NCBI GenBank assembly: GCA_028278245.1 | Contig: JANQEQ010000029.1 | Coordinates: forward strand, 1-64,000 | Length of the DNA stretch: 64,000 nt | Source: Phycisphaerales bacterium | Lineage (GTDB): Bacteria > Planctomycetota > Phycisphaerae > Phycisphaerales > SM1A02 | Direction: 5' to 3' | In this document: positions 171 through 19,228 of the stretch, piece after piece | Position numbering within the stretch: the first letter of the stretch is position 1 | How the letters are laid out: each line of letters begins with the position of its first letter | The notes under the pieces: generated by a model | What the model was told of the DNA's origin: nothing | Databases searched by the model: none | Seen by the model: the letters and a program-made list of their open reading frames with translations, nothing else | Position numbers and translations under genes: made by a program

Positions 171-736
171 TTTTCATGCTGGCTCAGAACGCCGCTGCTA
201 CAACGACAGGAGGAGATGAGATTTACCTGGTCTGGGGCTTTTTGCTGCTTGCCGCTGCCTTGGGATTGCTCTTTCTTGAGTTTCTCATTCCCTCCGGTGG
301 ATTGATCGGCATGCTGTGCGGCGTGTCGGCGGTGGGATCGGTCGTATCGTTTTTCATGTACGACACGATGTGGGGCGTTGTGGCCGCCTGTGCGTATGTG
401 ATTCTCACGCCAATTGTGCTTGTATTCTTTTTCAAAATCTGGATCAGCTCACCGCTGGCCAAGAGGATGATCCTCACCGGCCATACCGAATCGACCGACC
501 CGGCAGATGATGATTCAGAGGAAGAGGTGGAACAGCAACGCCGGAAACGCCACGCCGAATTGCAGCAACTCGTCGGGGTGGAAGGAGTAACGGTCACGGC
601 ACTGCGGCCGGTCGGTGTAGTAAAAATCCAGGGTCAGCGTGTTGATGCCATGGCCGAATCGGGCGTCATCGAGGCCAACGTCCCCATTGAGGTGACGGAT
701 GTATACGATAATCAGATCAAGGTGAAACCGGTCTGA
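167..736 (+). CDS. NfeD-like membrane protein
   Basis: A 189-residue protein with a hydrophobic segment at about residues 22-45, a second hydrophobic region at about 48-90 with glycine-rich turns (LIPSGGLIGMLCG), then an acidic linker (DPADDDSEEEVEQ) and a C-terminal domain of about 60 residues containing GVEGVTVTALRPVGVVKIQG. That motif is the NfeD OB-fold signature (G-x-x-G-x-A/V-x-T-x-L-R-P-x-G). The gene overlaps the preceding NfeD fragment by ATGA and lies 95 bp before floA, the conserved NfeD-flotillin arrangement. Its likely role is as a partner of FloA membrane assemblies (known of the family, not shown here). Confidence 0.8.
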   Translation: MIFMLAQNAAATTTGGDEIYLVWGFLLLAAALGLLFLEFLIPSGGLIGMLCGVSAVGSVVSFFMYDTMWGVVAACAYVILTPIVLVFFFKIWISSPLAKRMILTGHTESTDPADDDSEEEVEQQRRKRHAELQQLVGVEGVTVTALRPVGVVKIQGQRVDAMAESGVIEANVPIEVTDVYDNQIKVKPV

Positions 737-831
737 TACCTCACCTGTCGGGACAGATATGTTAGACTGGAGTACTTCACGTCGACACAGTTTGTGTCGC
801 TTTTTGGTTCTCTGAAACAAGGGATCTAGCG

Positions 832-1860
832 ATGTATGGACAATTATTACTGGCGGCTATTCCAGGCTGGCTTTGGGGTGTTTTGGCGGTTGTTGCCGTC
901 ATCGTGCTTATCATCCTTTTTATCATCGGCAATTACCTGAGCCTGTGGTTTCAGGCTCTGCTCTCCGGTGCGCGGGTCAGGCTTATCGATCTCATCATGA
1001 TGCGGTTTCGGAAAGTCGATCCGAAGACAATCGTGTTCAATCGGATCAGTGCGAAGAAGGCCGGGTTGGAAATTTCCACCGATCTTCTGGAAGCGCACTA
1101 TCTGGCCGGCGGCCGTGTTACCAATGTTGTGCGCTCCATGATTGCTGCGGATAAGGCACACATCGAACTTCCCTGGGAACGTTCTACTGCGATTGACCTG
1201 GCCGGCCGTGATATTCTCGAAGCGGTAAAAACCTCAGTCGACCCTAAGGTTATCGACTGCCCACATACGGGTTCGGGCAAAGGCACGATCGATGCCGTGG
1301 CAAAGGACGGCATCCAACTCAAGGCTAAAGCCAGAGTGACCGTGCGAACAAACATCGCACGCCTGGTCGGTGGTGCAACGGAAGAAACAATCATCGCCCG
1401 CGTCGGTGAGGGTATCGTCTCGGCTATCGGTTCATCCAGTACACACAAAGCTGTGCTGGAAAATCCGGATGCGATTTCAAAGGCTGTGTTAGCCAAGGGT
1501 CTGGACTCAGGCACTGCGTATGAAATCCTGTCCATTGATATTGCCGATGTCGATGTCGGATCCAACATTGGTGCTCAGCTCCAGGCGGACCAGGCCGAGG
1601 CGGACCAGAAGCGTTTCCGGGCTGAGGCAGAAAAACGCCGTGCCATGGCTGTGGCTCAGGAAGCGGAATATCAGGCTGAAGTCCAGAAAAACCGTGCCCT
1701 GGTGGTGCTGGCCGAAGCGGAAGTTCCCAAGGCAATGTCCGATGCTTTCCGGGCAGGCAACATGGGCATCATGGACTATTACCGCATGAAAAACGTCGTT
1801 GCTGACACCGGGATGCGCGATGCAATTGCCGGGAATGATGACGAACGACCCGAATCGTAA
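832..1860 (+). CDS. floA: Flotillin-like protein FloA
   Basis: A 342-residue protein with one N-terminal membrane hairpin (about residues 8-35), then the SPFH/band-7 type domain with the FloA hallmark [16 protein letters not shown], and a C-terminal Ala/Glu-rich coiled coil (about 240-300; [20 protein letters not shown]). Length and order match bacterial FloA (YqfA), a scaffold of lipid-ordered membrane microdomains. The ATG at 832 follows a short 95-bp gap after the NfeD gene; the pair is conserved in many phyla. No frameshift or missing region is seen. Confidence 0.93.
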
Positions 1861-1965
1861 CTGATTTTTTATCTGCATTTCCCTGAGGCTAATTTTACAG
1901 TCATCCTGCGCCTTCACCTGACGCTGCATATGACACATCGATGAAGGATGAGGTAAGATCAAATT

Positions 1966-2745
1966 GTGCCGACACTTCATGTGATCATCCCGGTGTTCAA
2001 TGAACCAACGACGTTGAGGCCGTGCCTCGAAAGAGTCATTGATGTTCAACTCCCCGAAGGATGGGCGCGTTCCCTCATTCTGGTGGATGATTGTTCCAAA
2101 GATGAGAATTACCATGCAGTCCAGATGCTGGTTACGTCATTGAAGGAAGAGAATCATGCAATCACTCTCCTTCGCCATGAGATAAATCGCGGGAAGGGTG
2201 CAGCACTGCAAACTGCCTATGATCATCTCCTCCGGGCCGAACCTCCTGATGATGATCTCATTGTTATCCAGGATGCCGACTTGGAATATGACCCGGAAGA
2301 TCATCTCAAATTGATGGAGCCGATTCTGGGGAGTCAGGCTGATGCAACCATCGGTTCGCGCTGGGGGAAGCACTATCAGAATAAAAGTCTCAAACGAAAA
2401 GTACACTCTGTTGGCAACGCATTCCTTACCTGGATGAGCAATCGGATGACCGGATACTCCCTGCGCGACATGGAATGCTGCTACAAGATGATTCCGATTG
2501 CATGGTTGAGGCAACTGCGGCCGATGCTGACCGAAGAGCGCTTTGGAATCGAGCCTCAGATCGTGGCTGCAATGAGTCGGCTGGGCATGAAACTGGAAGA
2601 AGTCCCGATTCATTACGAACCGCGAGGACCTCTGGCGGGTAAAAAAATAGGTTGGCGTGACGGCATTCGGGCGATCTATGTCATAGCACGTCAGCGAAAA
2701 AAGACTTCTACCCCAACATCTCACGCAGGGAAGCAAAAGCCTTGA
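1966..2745 (+). CDS. Family 2 glycosyltransferase (dolichyl-phosphate mannosyltransferase-like)
   Basis: A 259-residue GT-A fold enzyme starting at GTG 1966. The N-terminus HVIIPVFNE and the DXD-type site DLIVIQDADLEYDP (about residues 97-110) are diagnostic of GT2, and IGSRWGKHYQN matches the G-S-R segment of DPM1/polyprenyl-phosphate glycosyltransferases. It probably moves a sugar from a nucleotide donor to a lipid carrier at the inner face of the cytoplasmic membrane; there is no C-terminal membrane domain. Its stop overlaps the TTG start of the UPF0104-like gene (TTGA), so the two are coupled, a common pairing in glycolipid loci. Confidence 0.85.
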   Translation: MPTLHVIIPVFNEPTTLRPCLERVIDVQLPEGWARSLILVDDCSKDENYHAVQMLVTSLKEENHAITLLRHEINRGKGAALQTAYDHLLRAEPPDDDLIVIQDADLEYDPEDHLKLMEPILGSQADATIGSRWGKHYQNKSLKRKVHSVGNAFLTWMSNRMTGYSLRDMECCYKMIPIAWLRQLRPMLTEERFGIEPQIVAAMSRLGMKLEEVPIHYEPRGPLAGKKIGWRDGIRAIYVIARQRKKTSTPTSHAGKQKP

Positions 2746-5478: not shown

Positions 5479-7074
5479 CTACTCCGTATGGTCACCGTGT
5501 TTAAAGTGTGCGCCTTTGGTGAACCATTTCCTCAATAAGAGCGCGAGGACCGGACCACATACTGCGGGGACAGCCAGCACAAACCACATCGCCCAGGGAG
5601 AATCCCAATAGGAGAACTCATTGTTTGCTATTGATGCTTCAATATTTTCACGAACCAGAAGCAGATTATCATCCGGCGGCTTTGCACACCACTTTGCGAG
5701 CATATGACCGGATATTGCTGAGACAAAAGTCTTGGCAAGGAAATATGGCACCATTGAGAATCCAAGGTATGTGCCCTCCTGCCCTTCAGGAGCAATGGCC
5801 GCGGTGTATTCCGTAAGGCGAGGAGACCAGATTACTTCACCGATTGTCAGTACTACCAAGCAGACGATTGACATGATGTAAGTGAAACCAGCAATGGTTG
5901 CAAGGTTTTCATGCAACCATGGCCACCCCGAGGCCCAGTCAGAATTCATCACGGGTGGTATCGCCAGTATGAACAGCGACAGGCCGGAAACAATCGCACC
6001 GTAGACGAGCATCTTGTAAACACTGAACTTGTTCAAGATTGGTATCAGCAGGATCAGACCAATGATAACCAGGAAGGGATTGAGTGAGGTAAGCAACCCA
6101 ATGAATGCGTCGGGGCCAATCACCCGCTCCCAGAACTTCGGCATGAGCAGGTGCATATACAGGAACACGGCACGCACAGGGATGAGCAAGGTGATCAGGC
6201 AGGTAAATCGCCAGAACACAGGCTCACGAGCGATAGTCTTGAGGTTTTCCCAGGGATTGAGCCGCTTGGGCTTGCTGAGTTCAGGCTCCTGCGGGTCGAC
6301 ATCACCGCCGGTTGACGCTTCCAGCTCCTTGATTTCATCAGCATTGTTTGATTCGTTGTTTGCCGGTCCTTCACCCGGGCTGTACAACTGCTCTTCGCGT
6401 CGGATAAAGAATGCGATACAACCAAGGCACACTACTGCGGTGGCAATACCTACGGTGAATATGTGAACCCGGGGAAGATCCAATCCAATGAACACCAGAT
6501 CAATGAGCAAGCCGGCGAAAAATGCGCCCACATTCATGAACAGGTACCAGAGGTTGAAACCTGCTGAGCGCGACTTGCTGGTGGTAAATCGTTTGTTCGC
6601 TGCCTGGAATGCCGTCTGACCAATGGCGAGGAATGGTGCCTGTCCGATGAACAGGACCGCCATCACCCACGGAGCAGCGCCTCCTAACATCTCCTGGCTA
6701 AACGTTACTACAACGATTGCGGCTCTCAATATAAGTAAAACCCCTTGGTTTACATACATTGAGCGGCGAATCCCCAACCAGTCAGAAACCAAGCCGGAAA
6801 AGAACAAGCATATCGTGGTGAGCGAACCAAAAATCGTGTAAATGTAACCTGCCTTTTCATCATCCATTCCAAAGCCGTACTGATCCGTGCCGGCGGAAAA
6901 GAAGAGAACCGCGATGGTGTACACAGCAAAGAGAATGGTGTGATCAATAAAGTTGATCACCTGCATTCCCCAATATTCGGCCCTTGTTTCTTTCAGCGCG
7001 CCGAAACTTCTGAAGTATTCGACGACGAAGTTGCCGGACTTTTTGTCCGATCCGCCATTCGTTGTGTTACTCAT
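5479..7074 (-). CDS. MFS transporter (paralogue without periplasmic insert)
   Basis: A 531-residue polytopic protein with about 12 hydrophobic segments. The loop after TM2 has the MFS motif-A-like SDWLGIRRSMY. Between TM6 and TM7 there is a hydrophilic acidic linker (about residues 230-275, ADEIKELEASTGGDVDPQEP). Strong blocks shared with the neighbouring gene include SAGFNLWYLFMNVGA, LTEYTAAIAPEGQEGTYLG and the C-terminal KWFTKGAHF. Because it is colinear with its neighbour except for the insert, it is a tandem duplicate. It is distantly like proton-coupled oligopeptide transporters, but substrate cannot be read from the sequence. Start ATG 7074 has a GAGATT upstream. Confidence 0.85.
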   Translation of the reverse strand: MSNTTNGGSDKKSGNFVVEYFRSFGALKETRAEYWGMQVINFIDHTILFAVYTIAVLFFSAGTDQYGFGMDDEKAGYIYTIFGSLTTICLFFSGLVSDWLGIRRSMYVNQGVLLILRAAIVVVTFSQEMLGGAAPWVMAVLFIGQAPFLAIGQTAFQAANKRFTTSKSRSAGFNLWYLFMNVGAFFAGLLIDLVFIGLDLPRVHIFTVGIATAVVCLGCIAFFIRREEQLYSPGEGPANNESNNADEIKELEASTGGDVDPQEPELSKPKRLNPWENLKTIAREPVFWRFTCLITLLIPVRAVFLYMHLLMPKFWERVIGPDAFIGLLTSLNPFLVIIGLILLIPILNKFSVYKMLVYGAIVSGLSLFILAIPPVMNSDWASGWPWLHENLATIAGFTYIMSIVCLVVLTIGEVIWSPRLTEYTAAIAPEGQEGTYLGFSMVPYFLAKTFVSAISGHMLAKWCAKPPDDNLLLVRENIEASIANNEFSYWDSPWAMWFVLAVPAVCGPVLALLLRKWFTKGAHFKHGDHTE

Positions 7075-7187
7075 TGTAATCTCAATTTGCTCATGAAAAT
7101 AACTTATGAATGATGTGCCACGTTTTCGTGGGTTTGTACTCGCTCAGCACATAGCCGTTGATGAGGCTGACACCCCAGGATCTACGT

Positions 7188-9464
7188 TTATTCCTTCTTC
7201 TCCGCTGCGTCAAAGTGAGCGCCCTTCGTGAACCAGCCTTTGCCGAGGATGGCGATGATGGTCCCCACGATCGCCACTGTGCCAAGAATAATCCACATCA
7301 CATAGGGTGAATCCCAGAACGGAACGAGACCTTCCTCGATGCGCTGGCCTAGATTCTTTTCACCGGGCGGATACTCAGGGCACCATCGCATGAGCATGTA
7401 ACCTGAGAATGCACTCACGACGAGCTTAGCCAGGAAGTACGGAACCATGGATAAGCCGAGATAGGTTCCCTCCTGTCCTTCCGGAGCAATGGCTGCAGTG
7501 TATTCACTGAGGCGGGGAGACCAGATCAGTTCACCTACGGTCAGGATGAGGAGGAAGACCCCAGTTGTGATATAGGTCCAGGTCACGATATCAATCCCAC
7601 CCATCTGAGGTATTGCCGGTATGAACATGGATATCGATGTGATCAATGCGCCAAATACCAGCATTTTGTAGACATTGAACTTCTGCAGGATTGGTATAAC
7701 CAATATCAATCCAATGATGACCAGCACGGGATTGAAAGCCTGCATCGTTCCGACCTTCGCATCTTCACCTATGACGCGTAACCAGAACTTGGGGAAGAGC
7801 AGGCTGAGGTAGAGGAAGACGGCACGTACGCCCAGCAGCAATGATATCAGTACTGTAAATCTCCAGAAGATGGGTTCGGAGAGAACTGCCATAGTAATCG
7901 CCACCGGTCCCATCCCTTTTTCCTTCTTTCCTTCCTTTTCATTTACGGGTTGACCGGTTTCAGGATCAAGCTCCGTAATCCCGTCGCTTTCTTCTCCCTC
8001 TTCCGCTTCTGCTTTGGCTTCTTCCTCTGCTATTTCTTCAGGTGTGCGAAGCTGATCGGTATTCCTGATGAAGAGTAAGATTGCTATAACACATAAAACA
8101 CCGGTAACGACGCCGAAGGTAAAGACGTGGAAGTGCGGGAGACCAAGGCGAAGGTAGATGATGTCGATGAGGAAACCACCGCCCGCTGCACCGACATTCA
8201 TGAAGAGGTACCAGAGGTTAAAGCCAGCGCCGCGTGAACGCTTCGTGGTAAAGCGTCGGTTGGCTGCCTGGAAGACCGTAATGAGCATTGCCATGAACGG
8301 TGCCATCGCAATCATGAGAACCCACACGAGTTGATTCCTGAGCCAATTCTCAACCAGGCTGTTACCCGACACATTCCCCCCCGCTTTGTCGCTTTCATCG
8401 GCAAGGATACGGAGCGGCTCGGCGGCATTGCCGGTAATAATAAGATCTCCTTCCTTCAGGGCCGTGCCATCATCATTTGTATTTTTATCGGAGATCCGAA
8501 GGCCGTTACCGGGTGAATTGAGGTCGATGCCGATGTTGACGTTATGAGCCTCAGCTTCAATCCTGAGTAGATCAACCAACTCCGTCACCCAGGTGAGTTG
8601 GTCTATTCCGCTCACCGTCATTGAATTGCCGACACGATCTGTGATTGATAGTGTCGAGCCGCCTTCAAGACCAAGACCATTATTGATTTCTGATAACTTG
8701 ACACCGTTTACATCACTGATAATGCGCTTTCCAGAGAGGACATCAGATTCCTCACCTTCGGAATCAAGTTTGAGTTTCCCGGCAACGTGCGGACTGGCTT
8801 CGGTCGACTGAACGATGATCTTGCCTTCTCCTCCGGACTTGTCATCGAGTCGAAGGCTCGTCCAACCGCGAGCAATGCTTGCTTCAATCAATCCATTATT
8901 GCCGGACGCTTCATTGATACATGTCAGCAGGTCACCAATTGTCTGGGAGCCGGAAAAATCGACGTCAAATGCGGTCCCGTTACGCGCAGTGATACTGATG
9001 TCCGGTTGCCCCTCAGTAAAGTTGATTCCGTTGCCATTGTCCAGGACTGAAACAAGCGTCTCATTGTTCATTCGAACCGGTTCGTCCATGTACTGAACAA
9101 CAACCATGCCAATACGAGTAGCCAACAGTCCAAGGATGGCAAGGTAAAGTGCGCGCTTGATGCCAAGCCAATCTGTGATAACACCGGATATGAAGAGGAA
9201 GATGGTGGTAACGCTTGAGAAAACAGCAAAGACGAATCCAGCACCGACATCGGTGAAGCCGAAGTCTCTTGAGAGCGTAACGACGATGATGTTGAACATC
9301 GCAAAGTACGCCAGGCAGTCCAGCATATTGATAAGCTGCAGACCCCAGTACTCCTTTTTGGTTTCCTTGAGGATTTTGAAATCCTTGAAGTATTTGATGA
9401 TGAAGTTCTCGTGAGATTCTTCACTCGCTGAATCAATGTTTGGATCGGATGATGAGTCTGCCAT
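7188..9464 (-). CDS. MFS transporter with a large FliD/Flagellin_IN-like insert between TM3 and TM4
   Basis: A 758-residue protein. Residues 1-127 hold TM1-TM3 with the cytoplasmic motif TDWLGIKRALY after TM2. Residues about 128-370 are an inserted hydrophilic, Gly/Asn/Asp-rich region in the TM3-TM4 loop, which faces the periplasm in the usual MFS topology. Residues 371-758 resume the transporter and align with the adjacent paralogue (AGFNLWYLFMNVGA, LSEYTAAIAPEGQEGTYLG, KGWFTKGAHF). The insert contains two tandem units resembling the repeats of flagellar cap and hook-associated proteins: a T-I-G-D-L-L-x-x-I-N core with ARGWTSLRLDD, and SITDRVGNSMTVSGIDQ with NSPGNGLRISDKN. The acidic TM6-TM7 linker is rich in Glu (about residues 480-520). 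The fusion is a single uninterrupted frame. Transport substrate is unknown. Confidence 0.85.
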   Translation of the reverse strand: MADSSSDPNIDSASEESHENFIIKYFKDFKILKETKKEYWGLQLINMLDCLAYFAMFNIIVVTLSRDFGFTDVGAGFVFAVFSSVTTIFLFISGVITDWLGIKRALYLAILGLLATRIGMVVVQYMDEPVRMNNETLVSVLDNGNGINFTEGQPDISITARNGTAFDVDFSGSQTIGDLLTCINEASGNNGLIEASIARGWTSLRLDDKSGGEGKIIVQSTEASPHVAGKLKLDSEGEESDVLSGKRIISDVNGVKLSEINNGLGLEGGSTLSITDRVGNSMTVSGIDQLTWVTELVDLLRIEAEAHNVNIGIDLNSPGNGLRISDKNTNDDGTALKEGDLIITGNAAEPLRILADESDKAGGNVSGNSLVENWLRNQLVWVLMIAMAPFMAMLITVFQAANRRFTTKRSRGAGFNLWYLFMNVGAAGGGFLIDIIYLRLGLPHFHVFTFGVVTGVLCVIAILLFIRNTDQLRTPEEIAEEEAKAEAEEGEESDGITELDPETGQPVNEKEGKKEKGMGPVAITMAVLSEPIFWRFTVLISLLLGVRAVFLYLSLLFPKFWLRVIGEDAKVGTMQAFNPVLVIIGLILVIPILQKFNVYKMLVFGALITSISMFIPAIPQMGGIDIVTWTYITTGVFLLILTVGELIWSPRLSEYTAAIAPEGQEGTYLGLSMVPYFLAKLVVSAFSGYMLMRWCPEYPPGEKNLGQRIEEGLVPFWDSPYVMWIILGTVAIVGTIIAILGKGWFTKGAHFDAAEKKE
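8355..9083 (-). other. Segment encoding the periplasmic Flagellin_IN-like insert
   Basis: This stretch encodes residues about 128-370 of the 758-residue MFS protein. The neighbouring paralogue has only a short loop here (EMLGGAA). Unit 1 (about residues 138-235) and unit 2 (about 245-365) each follow the order: beta-rich start, ditype I-T-x-R-x-G pattern, helix with L-L-x-x-I-N or L-L-R-I-E, then G-L-x-x-x-D. That order is known from FliD and FlgL-type repeats. The assignment is from motif reading only. Confidence 0.6.
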
Positions 9465-9921: not shown

Positions 9922-10770
9922 ATGAAACGCATTGAACTCATTCCGGTTTTTGTTTTATTTTTGTGTTGTGTATCAGGTGCGCAGGCGCAGGTTGGCGCAT
10001 GTTGTATGCCGGACGAAAGTTGCATCGACGGCTTTCCTGAACAGATCTGCATCGCTCTGGGTGGTGAATTCATGGGGGACGGTACGCTCTGCTCAGAAAT
10101 CACCTGCGGTGCTGGAGCATGTGTGATCGACGACTATTGTATCGAGGATCTCAACGAAACAGAATGTCTCACTGCCGGCGGCACATGGGCAGGAGCCGGT
10201 GTCGGTTGCTGGGAAATCGGCGCGTGCTGCCTGATTGATCAGACATGCATCGACGCAACAACCAACAATGGTTGCTACGATTTAGGTGGGATATTCCAGG
10301 ACACCGGCACGTTCTGCGCGACAACCGAATGCGAACCCCTCGGCGCATGCTGCATCTCGGAAACCAGCGAGTGTATCGACAACACGACATATCACGATTG
10401 CGAAATTGATTCCATCTACGGCACCGGAACCTGGCAGGGAGAAGGTTCGGAATGCTCTCAGGTAAACTGCCCGACGTATGGTTATGGTGCCTGTTGCCTT
10501 CCCTGGGGTGAATGCTGGGATTTTATCGAGGAAAGCGAATGTATGTTCGAGCTGAACGGCACCTACCAGGGCGATAATGTGTCGTGCTCAGAGTCACATT
10601 GCTGTGTCTGGGATCTCACCTACGATGATCAGGTAAACATTGATGACGTCTTTGCTTTGCTCGGCGTATGGGGGCCTTGCTCCTACTGTGATGAAGATTT
10701 CAATGACGACGGCGATGTTAACATCGATGATATCTTCATCATGCTCGGCTACTGGGGGGAATGCCCGTAA
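9922..10770 (+). CDS. Secreted Cys-rich repeat protein with two C-terminal dockerin-like motifs
   Basis: A 282-residue protein with a clear signal peptide (MKRIELIPVFVLFLCCVSGA, likely cleavage after AQA). The body has five imperfect repeats of about 40 residues following GAC(C/V)-x-x-x-x-x-C-x...-G-G-x-(W/F)-x-G-x-G-x-x-C-x-x-x-x-C, with about six Cys each, so a disulphide-rich exported protein is expected. The C-terminus holds two dockerin-like calcium-loop motifs, DDQVNIDDVFALLGVWGPC and DGDVNIDDIFIMLGYWGEC, separated by NDD. This ending recurs in three other proteins of the window. The function is unknown; a surface or extracellular role is inferred. It is preceded by a strong ribosome site and followed by a hairpin at 10816. 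Confidence 0.82.
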   Translation: MKRIELIPVFVLFLCCVSGAQAQVGACCMPDESCIDGFPEQICIALGGEFMGDGTLCSEITCGAGACVIDDYCIEDLNETECLTAGGTWAGAGVGCWEIGACCLIDQTCIDATTNNGCYDLGGIFQDTGTFCATTECEPLGACCISETSECIDNTTYHDCEIDSIYGTGTWQGEGSECSQVNCPTYGYGACCLPWGECWDFIEESECMFELNGTYQGDNVSCSESHCCVWDLTYDDQVNIDDVFALLGVWGPCSYCDEDFNDDGDVNIDDIFIMLGYWGECP

Positions 10771-17976: not shown

Positions 17977-18307
17977 TGAGGCACCCTTAGGTATTTCATT
18001 CTGGGGAAAATCTGATCATGTACATTACTAGATTTTATCAGATTACGATCATTCCAAGGGATTACTTTGTTTTAGCAAGTAGTTATGGTCCGCACAGCGG
18101 ACCCTACACATATACGCTTCAATATCTGACATGAGATTATGGCGGGGAGGGATGCGAGGGTACCTCTAGATACCTCTACGACAATTCTGCAACGCGAGAA
18201 AATTTCCTGGACTTCGCGGGAGGTATCGTTACACTGGTACCAGAACAGCTCGGTCTGCGGAGCCGGGCGAAGGACACACTGGAAATATTGGATTGGGAGA
18301 AATCATC
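17977..18307. other. Gene-free region with a REP element
   Basis: 331 bp between the divergent nuclease-like gene and the dockerin-like gene. It contains the palindrome at 18087-18103 and, just before the next gene, a TTGGGAGAAATC ribosome site. Nothing else is recognised. Confidence 0.5.
18087..18103. repeat. REP-like palindrome, family GGTCCGC
   Basis: GGTCCGCACAGCGGACC has perfect 7-bp arms and an ACA loop. It is the reverse complement of the 15945-15961 element, including flanking AT and CTAC, so the two copies form an inverted pair around the accessory genes. Confidence 0.8.
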
Positions 18308-19228
18308 ATGTTGAAGCTGCTTGTTGTCGTGTCTGCGTTTACTTTGTCCTGTGGCGTACAAGCGCAGCAACTGTTTGTGGGATTGGAATCCTCGGGTGTT
18401 CCTACGCGAACAACGGACCTCACCGGTTTCCCCGATGTGTCGTACGATGACCACTTCACGTTTGAAGTGAGCGGTGCGGCGGCAGCTCCGGATGGAACGC
18501 TCTATCTCTGCAATGGTGCGTTTACCACCGATCTCTACATGTCCATCAATTTTTCAAATCCGCAATACCTGTCAACACTTTCCGAGGATGCTTCCGGTTT
18601 GGCGTACGGCCGAGGCAAGCTATACGGCTATTCAAACTATGCCACGCCCAAGGGTATTTATGAGATCAATCCCGCCACCGGCCAATGTACACTCGTCCTT
18701 GATGTTTACACCGGTACCGGTTACCGATTCTTTGCGCTTGGTTACAATCCGATTGACGATCTGTTTTACGGCTATACGGAATACGGCGATTCGGGTCTGT
18801 ACTCTATTAACATCGATACCGGTGTAATGCTGAAGCTTGCCGATACGATTCCTGCAAGCAACGGCCAGGGACGAGGCATGGCGGTGGGCGGTAACACGGT
18901 TTACCTGACTGCCACACGTGGTGACGATGACATTCCGTTCTTCGCTTATGATCTTGCTCAGGGGGCAGGCGGTACATGGGTGGGTTTCACCAATGCATAT
19001 CCAGATTATCACTCCACAGGTGGAGCAGCGTGGATTCCCGGTCCATGTCCTGCCGATCTCAACAATGATTACATTGTGAACATCGACGACATCTTCGCCG
19101 TGCTTGGCTTATGGGGCGACTGTCCTGATCCCTGTCCGCCGTATTGCACCGGCGATCTCACGGAAGATTGCACTGTCAACATCGACGATATTTTCGCCAT
19201 CCTCGGCCAATGGGGGCCGTGTTCGTAA
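18308..19228 (+). CDS. Secreted protein with beta-propeller-like body and two dockerin-like motifs
   Basis: A 306-residue protein starting at ATG 18308, preferred over an upstream in-frame ATG at 18293 because the signal peptide (MLKLLVVVSAFTLSCGVQAQ) begins there and GGGAGAAATC precedes it. The body (about residues 25-235) has repeated short motifs such as TLYLCNGAF, GKLYGYSNYA, DDLFYGYTEY and NTVYLTATRG, suggesting a beta-propeller. The C-terminus has CPADLNNDYIVNIDDIFAVL and then LTEDCTVNIDDIFAILGQWG, two dockerin-like calcium loops as in the gene at 9922. It lies upstream of phoB on the same strand but 231 bp away. Role unknown. Confidence 0.78.
   Translation: MLKLLVVVSAFTLSCGVQAQQLFVGLESSGVPTRTTDLTGFPDVSYDDHFTFEVSGAAAAPDGTLYLCNGAFTTDLYMSINFSNPQYLSTLSEDASGLAYGRGKLYGYSNYATPKGIYEINPATGQCTLVLDVYTGTGYRFFALGYNPIDDLFYGYTEYGDSGLYSINIDTGVMLKLADTIPASNGQGRGMAVGGNTVYLTATRGDDDIPFFAYDLAQGAGGTWVGFTNAYPDYHSTGGAAWIPGPCPADLNNDYIVNIDDIFAVLGLWGDCPDPCPPYCTGDLTEDCTVNIDDIFAILGQWGPCS

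Follow-up and report, generated by a model that had tools for sequence, protein, structure and literature searches.

FliD-like repeat units in a predicted periplasmic loop of a major facilitator transporter from Phycisphaerales, and their recurrence in other transporters of the same bacterial family

A transporter of the major facilitator superfamily (MFS) in a Phycisphaerales bacterium carries, in a loop predicted to be periplasmic, two tandem units homologous to the central repeats of the flagellar protein FliD. Its gene lies in a stretch of 64,000 nucleotides (contig JANQEQ010000029.1 of assembly GCA_028278245.1, positions 1 to 64,000), which we call the window. Read from sequence comparison, the FliD homology, the in-frame insertion, the existence of orthologues with and without an insert, and constraint on the insert of this transporter, MFS-A, stand on firm ground, and on the same basis it appears almost certain that FliD-derived units were inserted into transporters of this family. 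Our best explanation joins to this the proposal that the units form a periplasmic adapter arm; taken as a whole, we would place it just short of an even chance.

The transporter and its insert

The features discussed below all lie on the minus strand, and their coordinates are those of the window.

7188..9464, minus: MFS-A, MFS transporter with the insert, 758 aa (open frame; Pfam MFS_1 on both sides of the insert)
9096..9152, minus: TM3, residues 105-123 (hydropathy)
8355..9086, minus: insert, residues 127-370, 244 aa, in the predicted periplasmic loop L3-4 (alignment with insertless homologues, hydropathy, charge count)
8727..9047, minus: FliD-like unit 1, residues 140-246 (FliD/FlgL-only profile, AlphaFold2)
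8382..8696, minus: FliD-like unit 2, residues 257-361 (FliD/FlgL-only profile; clade with FliD unit 5)
8274..8330, minus: TM4, residues 379-397 (hydropathy and charge count)
5479..7074, minus: MFS-B, tandem paralogue, 531 aa, without insert in the window (alignment, hydropathy)

MFS-A is a 12-TM secondary transporter of the major facilitator superfamily, its transport activity being inferred: Pfam MFS_1 matches it at 87.6 bits (cutoff 33.4, E 9.9e-25), the match being split in two by the insert, and its hydropathy profile has 12 peaks. It is 55% identical to MFS-B over 375 residues; a PDB sequence search with MFS-B at E 0.01 found no homologue. By hydropathy, the TM3-TM4 loop has 255 residues in MFS-A and about 2 in MFS-B. 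An earlier note on this DNA, made without database searches, had reported about 240 extra residues between these segments relative to the paralogue, at 8355-9083, and alignment bears this out as an in-frame insert of 244 residues at 8355-9086. The same note had the insert facing the periplasm, which hydropathy and loop charge support. The insert is net acidic (39 D+E against 18 K+R), and the loop after TM4 is positive (5 K+R, no D+E), which puts it on the cytoplasmic side; the loop before TM3 contains the sequence DWLGIKR, which we take to be an MFS motif A-like element, also cytoplasmic. Hydropathy would accordingly have the MFS-A insert in the periplasm, opposite the positively charged cytoplasmic loops.

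A search of relatives for the same architecture, proposed in that note, was successful. All four MFS-A orthologues found have the insert, with 2-5 units and lengths of 244 aa in the window, 511 in CP070772.1, 243 in SI037_bin56 and 373 in UBA7888, and it is missing from MFS-B of the window and from other homologues. CP070772.1, which belongs to the window's family, is the same record as genome G514 or a near copy of it. The transporter is rare, since MFS-A found matches at E <= 1e-25 in only four of 181 genomes of the family, two of them (G513 and G540) confined to the insert region. That an assembly error had joined an MFS gene to fliD might be suspected of a MAG-like assembly of 180 contigs, but this is already refuted by the orthologues with the insert, which come from four assemblies, one of them a single-contig chromosome of 3.94 Mb. 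The insert is, besides, free of stops and merely 35% identical to the FliD of a relative, and the possibility of a chimera can practically be dismissed.

Between the four MFS-A genes, identity at fourfold synonymous sites is 26-40%, where chance alone would give 26-32%, so that these sites are near saturation, while amino-acid identity is 41-50% in the insert and 70-78% in the core. The persistence of such identity in the insert despite near-saturated synonymous sites shows it to be under purifying selection.

Homology of the insert to FliD

The reading of the insert as two tandem FliD-like units, also made in the earlier note, was upheld by a profile HMM built from 96 FliD and FlgL units, which had been gathered by an iterated search that started from transporter units; the final profile contains no transporter sequence. 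This FliD/FlgL-only HMM found both units complete (unit 1 at 60.5 bits, unit 2 at 33.2 bits) and, with the database size set nominally at 100,000 sequences, matched MFS-A as a whole at E 2.2e-24. The best of 1,400 shuffled inserts reached 11.0 bits, and insertless transporters gave no match to this HMM. When the order and the class were searched with whole MFS-A, FliD-like proteins aligned to the insert at 31-39% identity, with E values as low as about 1e-21, and FliD proteins of the class matched it at about 1e-20. Homologues of the insert profile were present in 197 of 397 genomes of the class, and at the 20 loci fetched from that search the encoded proteins are FliD- or FlgL-like and have no TM segments; matches with unusual ORF lengths in the class search likewise turned out to be FliD-/FlgL-like proteins lacking TM segments. 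Some FliD-like proteins of the class (L058, G248:C169; L059, G006:C85) contain as many as 7-8 units in tandem, each of about 105 residues, flanked by the terminal domains.

The test against Pfam Flagellin_IN (PF07196) that the earlier note had proposed was not passed. Unit 1 of MFS-A scored 15.2 bits, under the gathering cutoff of 22.7, so that the insert is not filed as a member of this family; the insert of a CitMHS_2 transporter described below scored 17.3 bits, also under the cutoff. A genuine FliD of the same bacterial family (L013, with both FliD_N and FliD_C) gave no Flagellin_IN match up to E 0.1, which indicates that the model is insensitive for this clade. Neither FliD_N nor FliD_C was found in MFS-A by Pfam. 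Matches of MFS-A to PdxA and DUF5983_N in Pfam and NCBIfam were judged to be chance, as were the PdxA matches that were all a single-sequence PDB search with the insert returned. Ubiquitin matches of the unit profile, made up of summed repeats of about 4 bits each, were set aside, and the matches that remained were to FliD structures 9gsx (2e-4) and 6sih (1e-3).

Over 227 residues the insert shares 35% identity with the consecutive FliD units 4-5; in BLAST, its residues 18-233 aligned at 35% identity with residues 384-603 of the FliD of G514. This protein was the top match, among seven FliD/FlgL proteins, of each of the transporter inserts, and the FliD segments matched differ between inserts. 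In a maximum-likelihood tree of 46 units, each of the four MFS-A proteins has its unit 2 in a clade that also contains FliD unit 5 from the same bacterial family (FliD077_508, FliD071_517 and FliD013_504; support 100/99), which implies common descent. Unit 3 of the longer inserts of the L001 (CP070772.1) and L003 MFS-A proteins grouped likewise with FliD unit 3 (100/100), and unit 1 lay near FliD unit 4 and FlgL units, weakly resolved. Midpoint rooting served for drawing only, and the tree was not rooted for direction; that the units passed from FliD to the transporters is inferred from the FliD array being widespread and the transporter carriers narrow. Phycisphaerae FliD central (D2/D3) regions resemble the inserts in having units of about 105 aa, at 27-40% identity, with consecutive units pairing with consecutive insert units and tree clades in common. 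Unlike FliD, the transporters lack FliD_N and FliD_C, hold the units within a membrane protein, and have 1-5 units instead of 5-8.

Structure prediction, a further check that had been proposed, gave weak support. AlphaFold2 modelled the insert from eight sequences at mean pLDDT 76 with a repeated b-b-a-b-b-b pattern, which in unit 1 had pLDDT mostly of 75-96; the full-length MFS-A model, from 4 sequences, was poor (mean pLDDT 42) and was for that reason used for secondary structure only. Foldseek with the insert returned nothing at E <= 0.001, and nothing among viral proteins at the same threshold; the non-significant ranking is headed by the flagellin FlaA of Vibrio (E 0.08), with Serratia FliD D2-D3 fifth (E 0.35). 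The predicted structure is consistent with a FliD D2/D3 fold without proving it.

Further transporters with FliD-like arrays

Pieces of FliD type have been placed separately into at least three further transporter genes of the family besides MFS-A, a recurrence that goes beyond what the earlier note saw. A 930-aa POT/PTR2 transporter encoded on contig 45 of the window genome carries a FliD-like array, about 390 residues long, in the loop that joins its final two TM segments (E 4.8e-36 with the FliD/FlgL-only HMM); in MFS-B of CP070772.1, 410 residues are inserted at the loop position that is occupied in MFS-A (E 3.9e-29); and a CitMHS_2 transporter of G514 has a single unit (E 5.5e-16). A non-FliD origin of the weak matches in these three was excluded by this HMM. 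There are thus two carriers, of different transporter families, in the window genome (MFS-A and POT), three carriers in G514 (MFS-A, MFS-B and CitMHS_2), and one carrier apiece in genomes G501 and G502. The inserts of MFS-A, POT and CitMHS_2 all lie in loops judged non-cytoplasmic from hydropathy and loop charge, and the non-flagellar proteins with FliD-like units found in the window genome and G514 were transporters in every case.

Counterparts without an insert exist for each: the window's own MFS-B, POT orthologues in G514 (L100, 63% identical) and four others, and a CitMHS_2 orthologue in the window genome (G000:C74, 74% identical), CitMHS_2 open frames across the bacterial family being typically about 490-570 aa. 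Such insertless MFS, POT (PTR2) and CitMHS_2 transporters of the class share the cores of the carriers (55% for MFS-A/MFS-B, 63% for POT, 74% for CitMHS_2) and have ordinary short loops where the carriers have the array. The spread of a domain can here be seen with donor gene family and empty sites both in hand. Three of the four insertions are known from a single genome each, so that constraint cannot be tested there. Because the inserts match different FliD segments, several recruitments are likelier than a single ancestry with spread between transporters; the weak grouping of one MFS-A unit with one MFS-B unit (90/80) leaves room for some exchange.

This pattern also suits a serious rival to a functional arm, in which pieces of the repeat-rich fliD gene land elsewhere by illegitimate recombination and are kept only if they preserve the reading frame and lie in a periplasmic loop, with no specific function and selected solely to stay folded. 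In favour of such tolerated passengers are the unrelated transporter families, the two different loops (L3-4 and L11-12), the differing FliD segments and unit numbers, and the fact that the POT and CitMHS_2 insertions are each known from only one genome, as are the other kinds of large periplasmic inserts in POT-like transporters of the clade. Such passengers should be freely deleted, however, and the MFS-A insert has been kept in four lineages at the identity given above; moreover, in the two flagellated carrier genomes the units were found, flagellar proteins apart, only in transporters. We consider the passenger reading possible without being probable.

Several observations touch on these loci. 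The tandem pair is reversed in order, MFS-A lying upstream in the window (5479-9464) and MFS-B upstream in CP070772.1 (L001 5073-11072), where the pair adjoins an OPT-like transporter, an asparagine synthase-like gene and a dicarboxylate symporter-like gene (names read by eye, without a profile). Many PTR2-like proteins of family f1 (e.g. L092, L093 and L094) have frames of 700-815 aa with split PTR2 matches; considered as extra carriers, they were rejected, having no FliD-like units. An 800-aa POT-like MFS transporter of the window genome (L011; G000:C135, ORF 316-2718, minus strand) has a different insert, about 330 residues long and apparently helical, ahead of its final TM segment, again without FliD-like units. 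The long, split PTR2-like frames suggest that transporters of the clade commonly hold large inserts of other kinds.

Possible roles of the proposed periplasmic arm

Under the explanation we prefer, two tandem units of a FliD central (D2/D3) array would have entered loop L3-4 of MFS-A in an ancestor of the Phycisphaerales-related lineage, and such arrays would have gone separately and repeatedly into extracytoplasmic loops of MFS-B, POT/PTR2 and CitMHS_2. Once in the periplasm the units may fold into an arm, in keeping with FliD being a protein that is normally exported and folds outside the cell. This arm could serve as an adapter, keeping a periplasmic partner (e.g. a peptidase or a binding protein) or a polymeric substrate close to the mouth of the transporter, and the core transport cycle would be independent of it. 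The adapter mechanism is inferred by analogy, without partner, substrate or expression data, and we consider it somewhat less likely than not; the roles suggested in the earlier note, namely substrate capture, partner binding or a part in the uptake of extracellular material, are likewise conjectural. No conserved catalytic or binding residue specific to the insert was identified. Also against this explanation stand the variation from 2 to 5 units among MFS-A orthologues and the different FliD segments in each transporter, which would suit a loose constraint or a spacer no less than a specific binding surface.

The closest known parallel is the ectodomain of the mammalian peptide transporters PepT1 and PepT2 (SLC15). 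Built of beta domains in tandem and lying in an extracellular loop, it binds trypsin, and its removal leaves transport largely unimpaired (PMC4597091). The inserts in the MFS transporters described here are read likewise as independent modules of tandem, predicted beta domains in extracytoplasmic loops, the mammalian one being immunoglobulin-like and the present ones FliD-like. That 2015 paper states that such an ectodomain is restricted, among the bacterial and mammalian homologues, to those of mammals (PMC4597091); the POT of the window genome is a bacterial homologue with a large domain, unrelated to that of PepT1/PepT2. Ectodomains in MFS loops are known from mammals. Our literature search found no report of a flagellar structural domain taken into use in transporters (the term Flagellin_IN was not properly searchable), nor of one module inserted separately in several transporter families of one bacterial family. 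The series of orthologues with and without insert in MFS-B, POT and CitMHS_2 allows a direct test of what an inserted periplasmic domain contributes to transport.

The arms might instead bind one another, or a shared periplasmic scaffold, and so gather uptake systems into patches. The presence of the module on two transporters in the window genome and on three in G514 agrees with such clustering, as does the oligomeric state of FliD (PMC5072837); the single carrier in each of G501 and G502 does not, and we regard clustering as quite improbable. A broader suggestion, that the FliD repeat is a general-purpose periplasmic module linking several unrelated secondary transporters to a common partner or to each other, as a transporter-tethered capture layer, is speculative and on balance unlikely.

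Homology of the module to FliD/FlgL units, and the presence of FlhA and flagellar genes in the window genome and G514, could also suggest that the transporter is anchored through its insert to the flagellum or the flagellar export system. The normal place of FliD is, however, the distal filament tip, and a flagellar role is made unlikely by G501 and G502, which have the transporter with its insert and in which neither FlhA nor any further protein with FliD-like units was detected. Both are MAGs and may be incomplete, which leaves these absences uncertain; even so, docking seems a very remote prospect. A FliD_C search of the window genome did not find its own FliD, though FlhA, FlgL, FlgK-like and flagellin-like genes are there, and the gap is probably one of assembly. 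Elsewhere in the window, at 9922-10770 and 18293-19228, are secreted proteins with C-terminal pairs of a dockerin-like motif (DLNxDxxVNIDDIFxxLGxWG), which occurs also in CP070772.1 (L001 827-2074).
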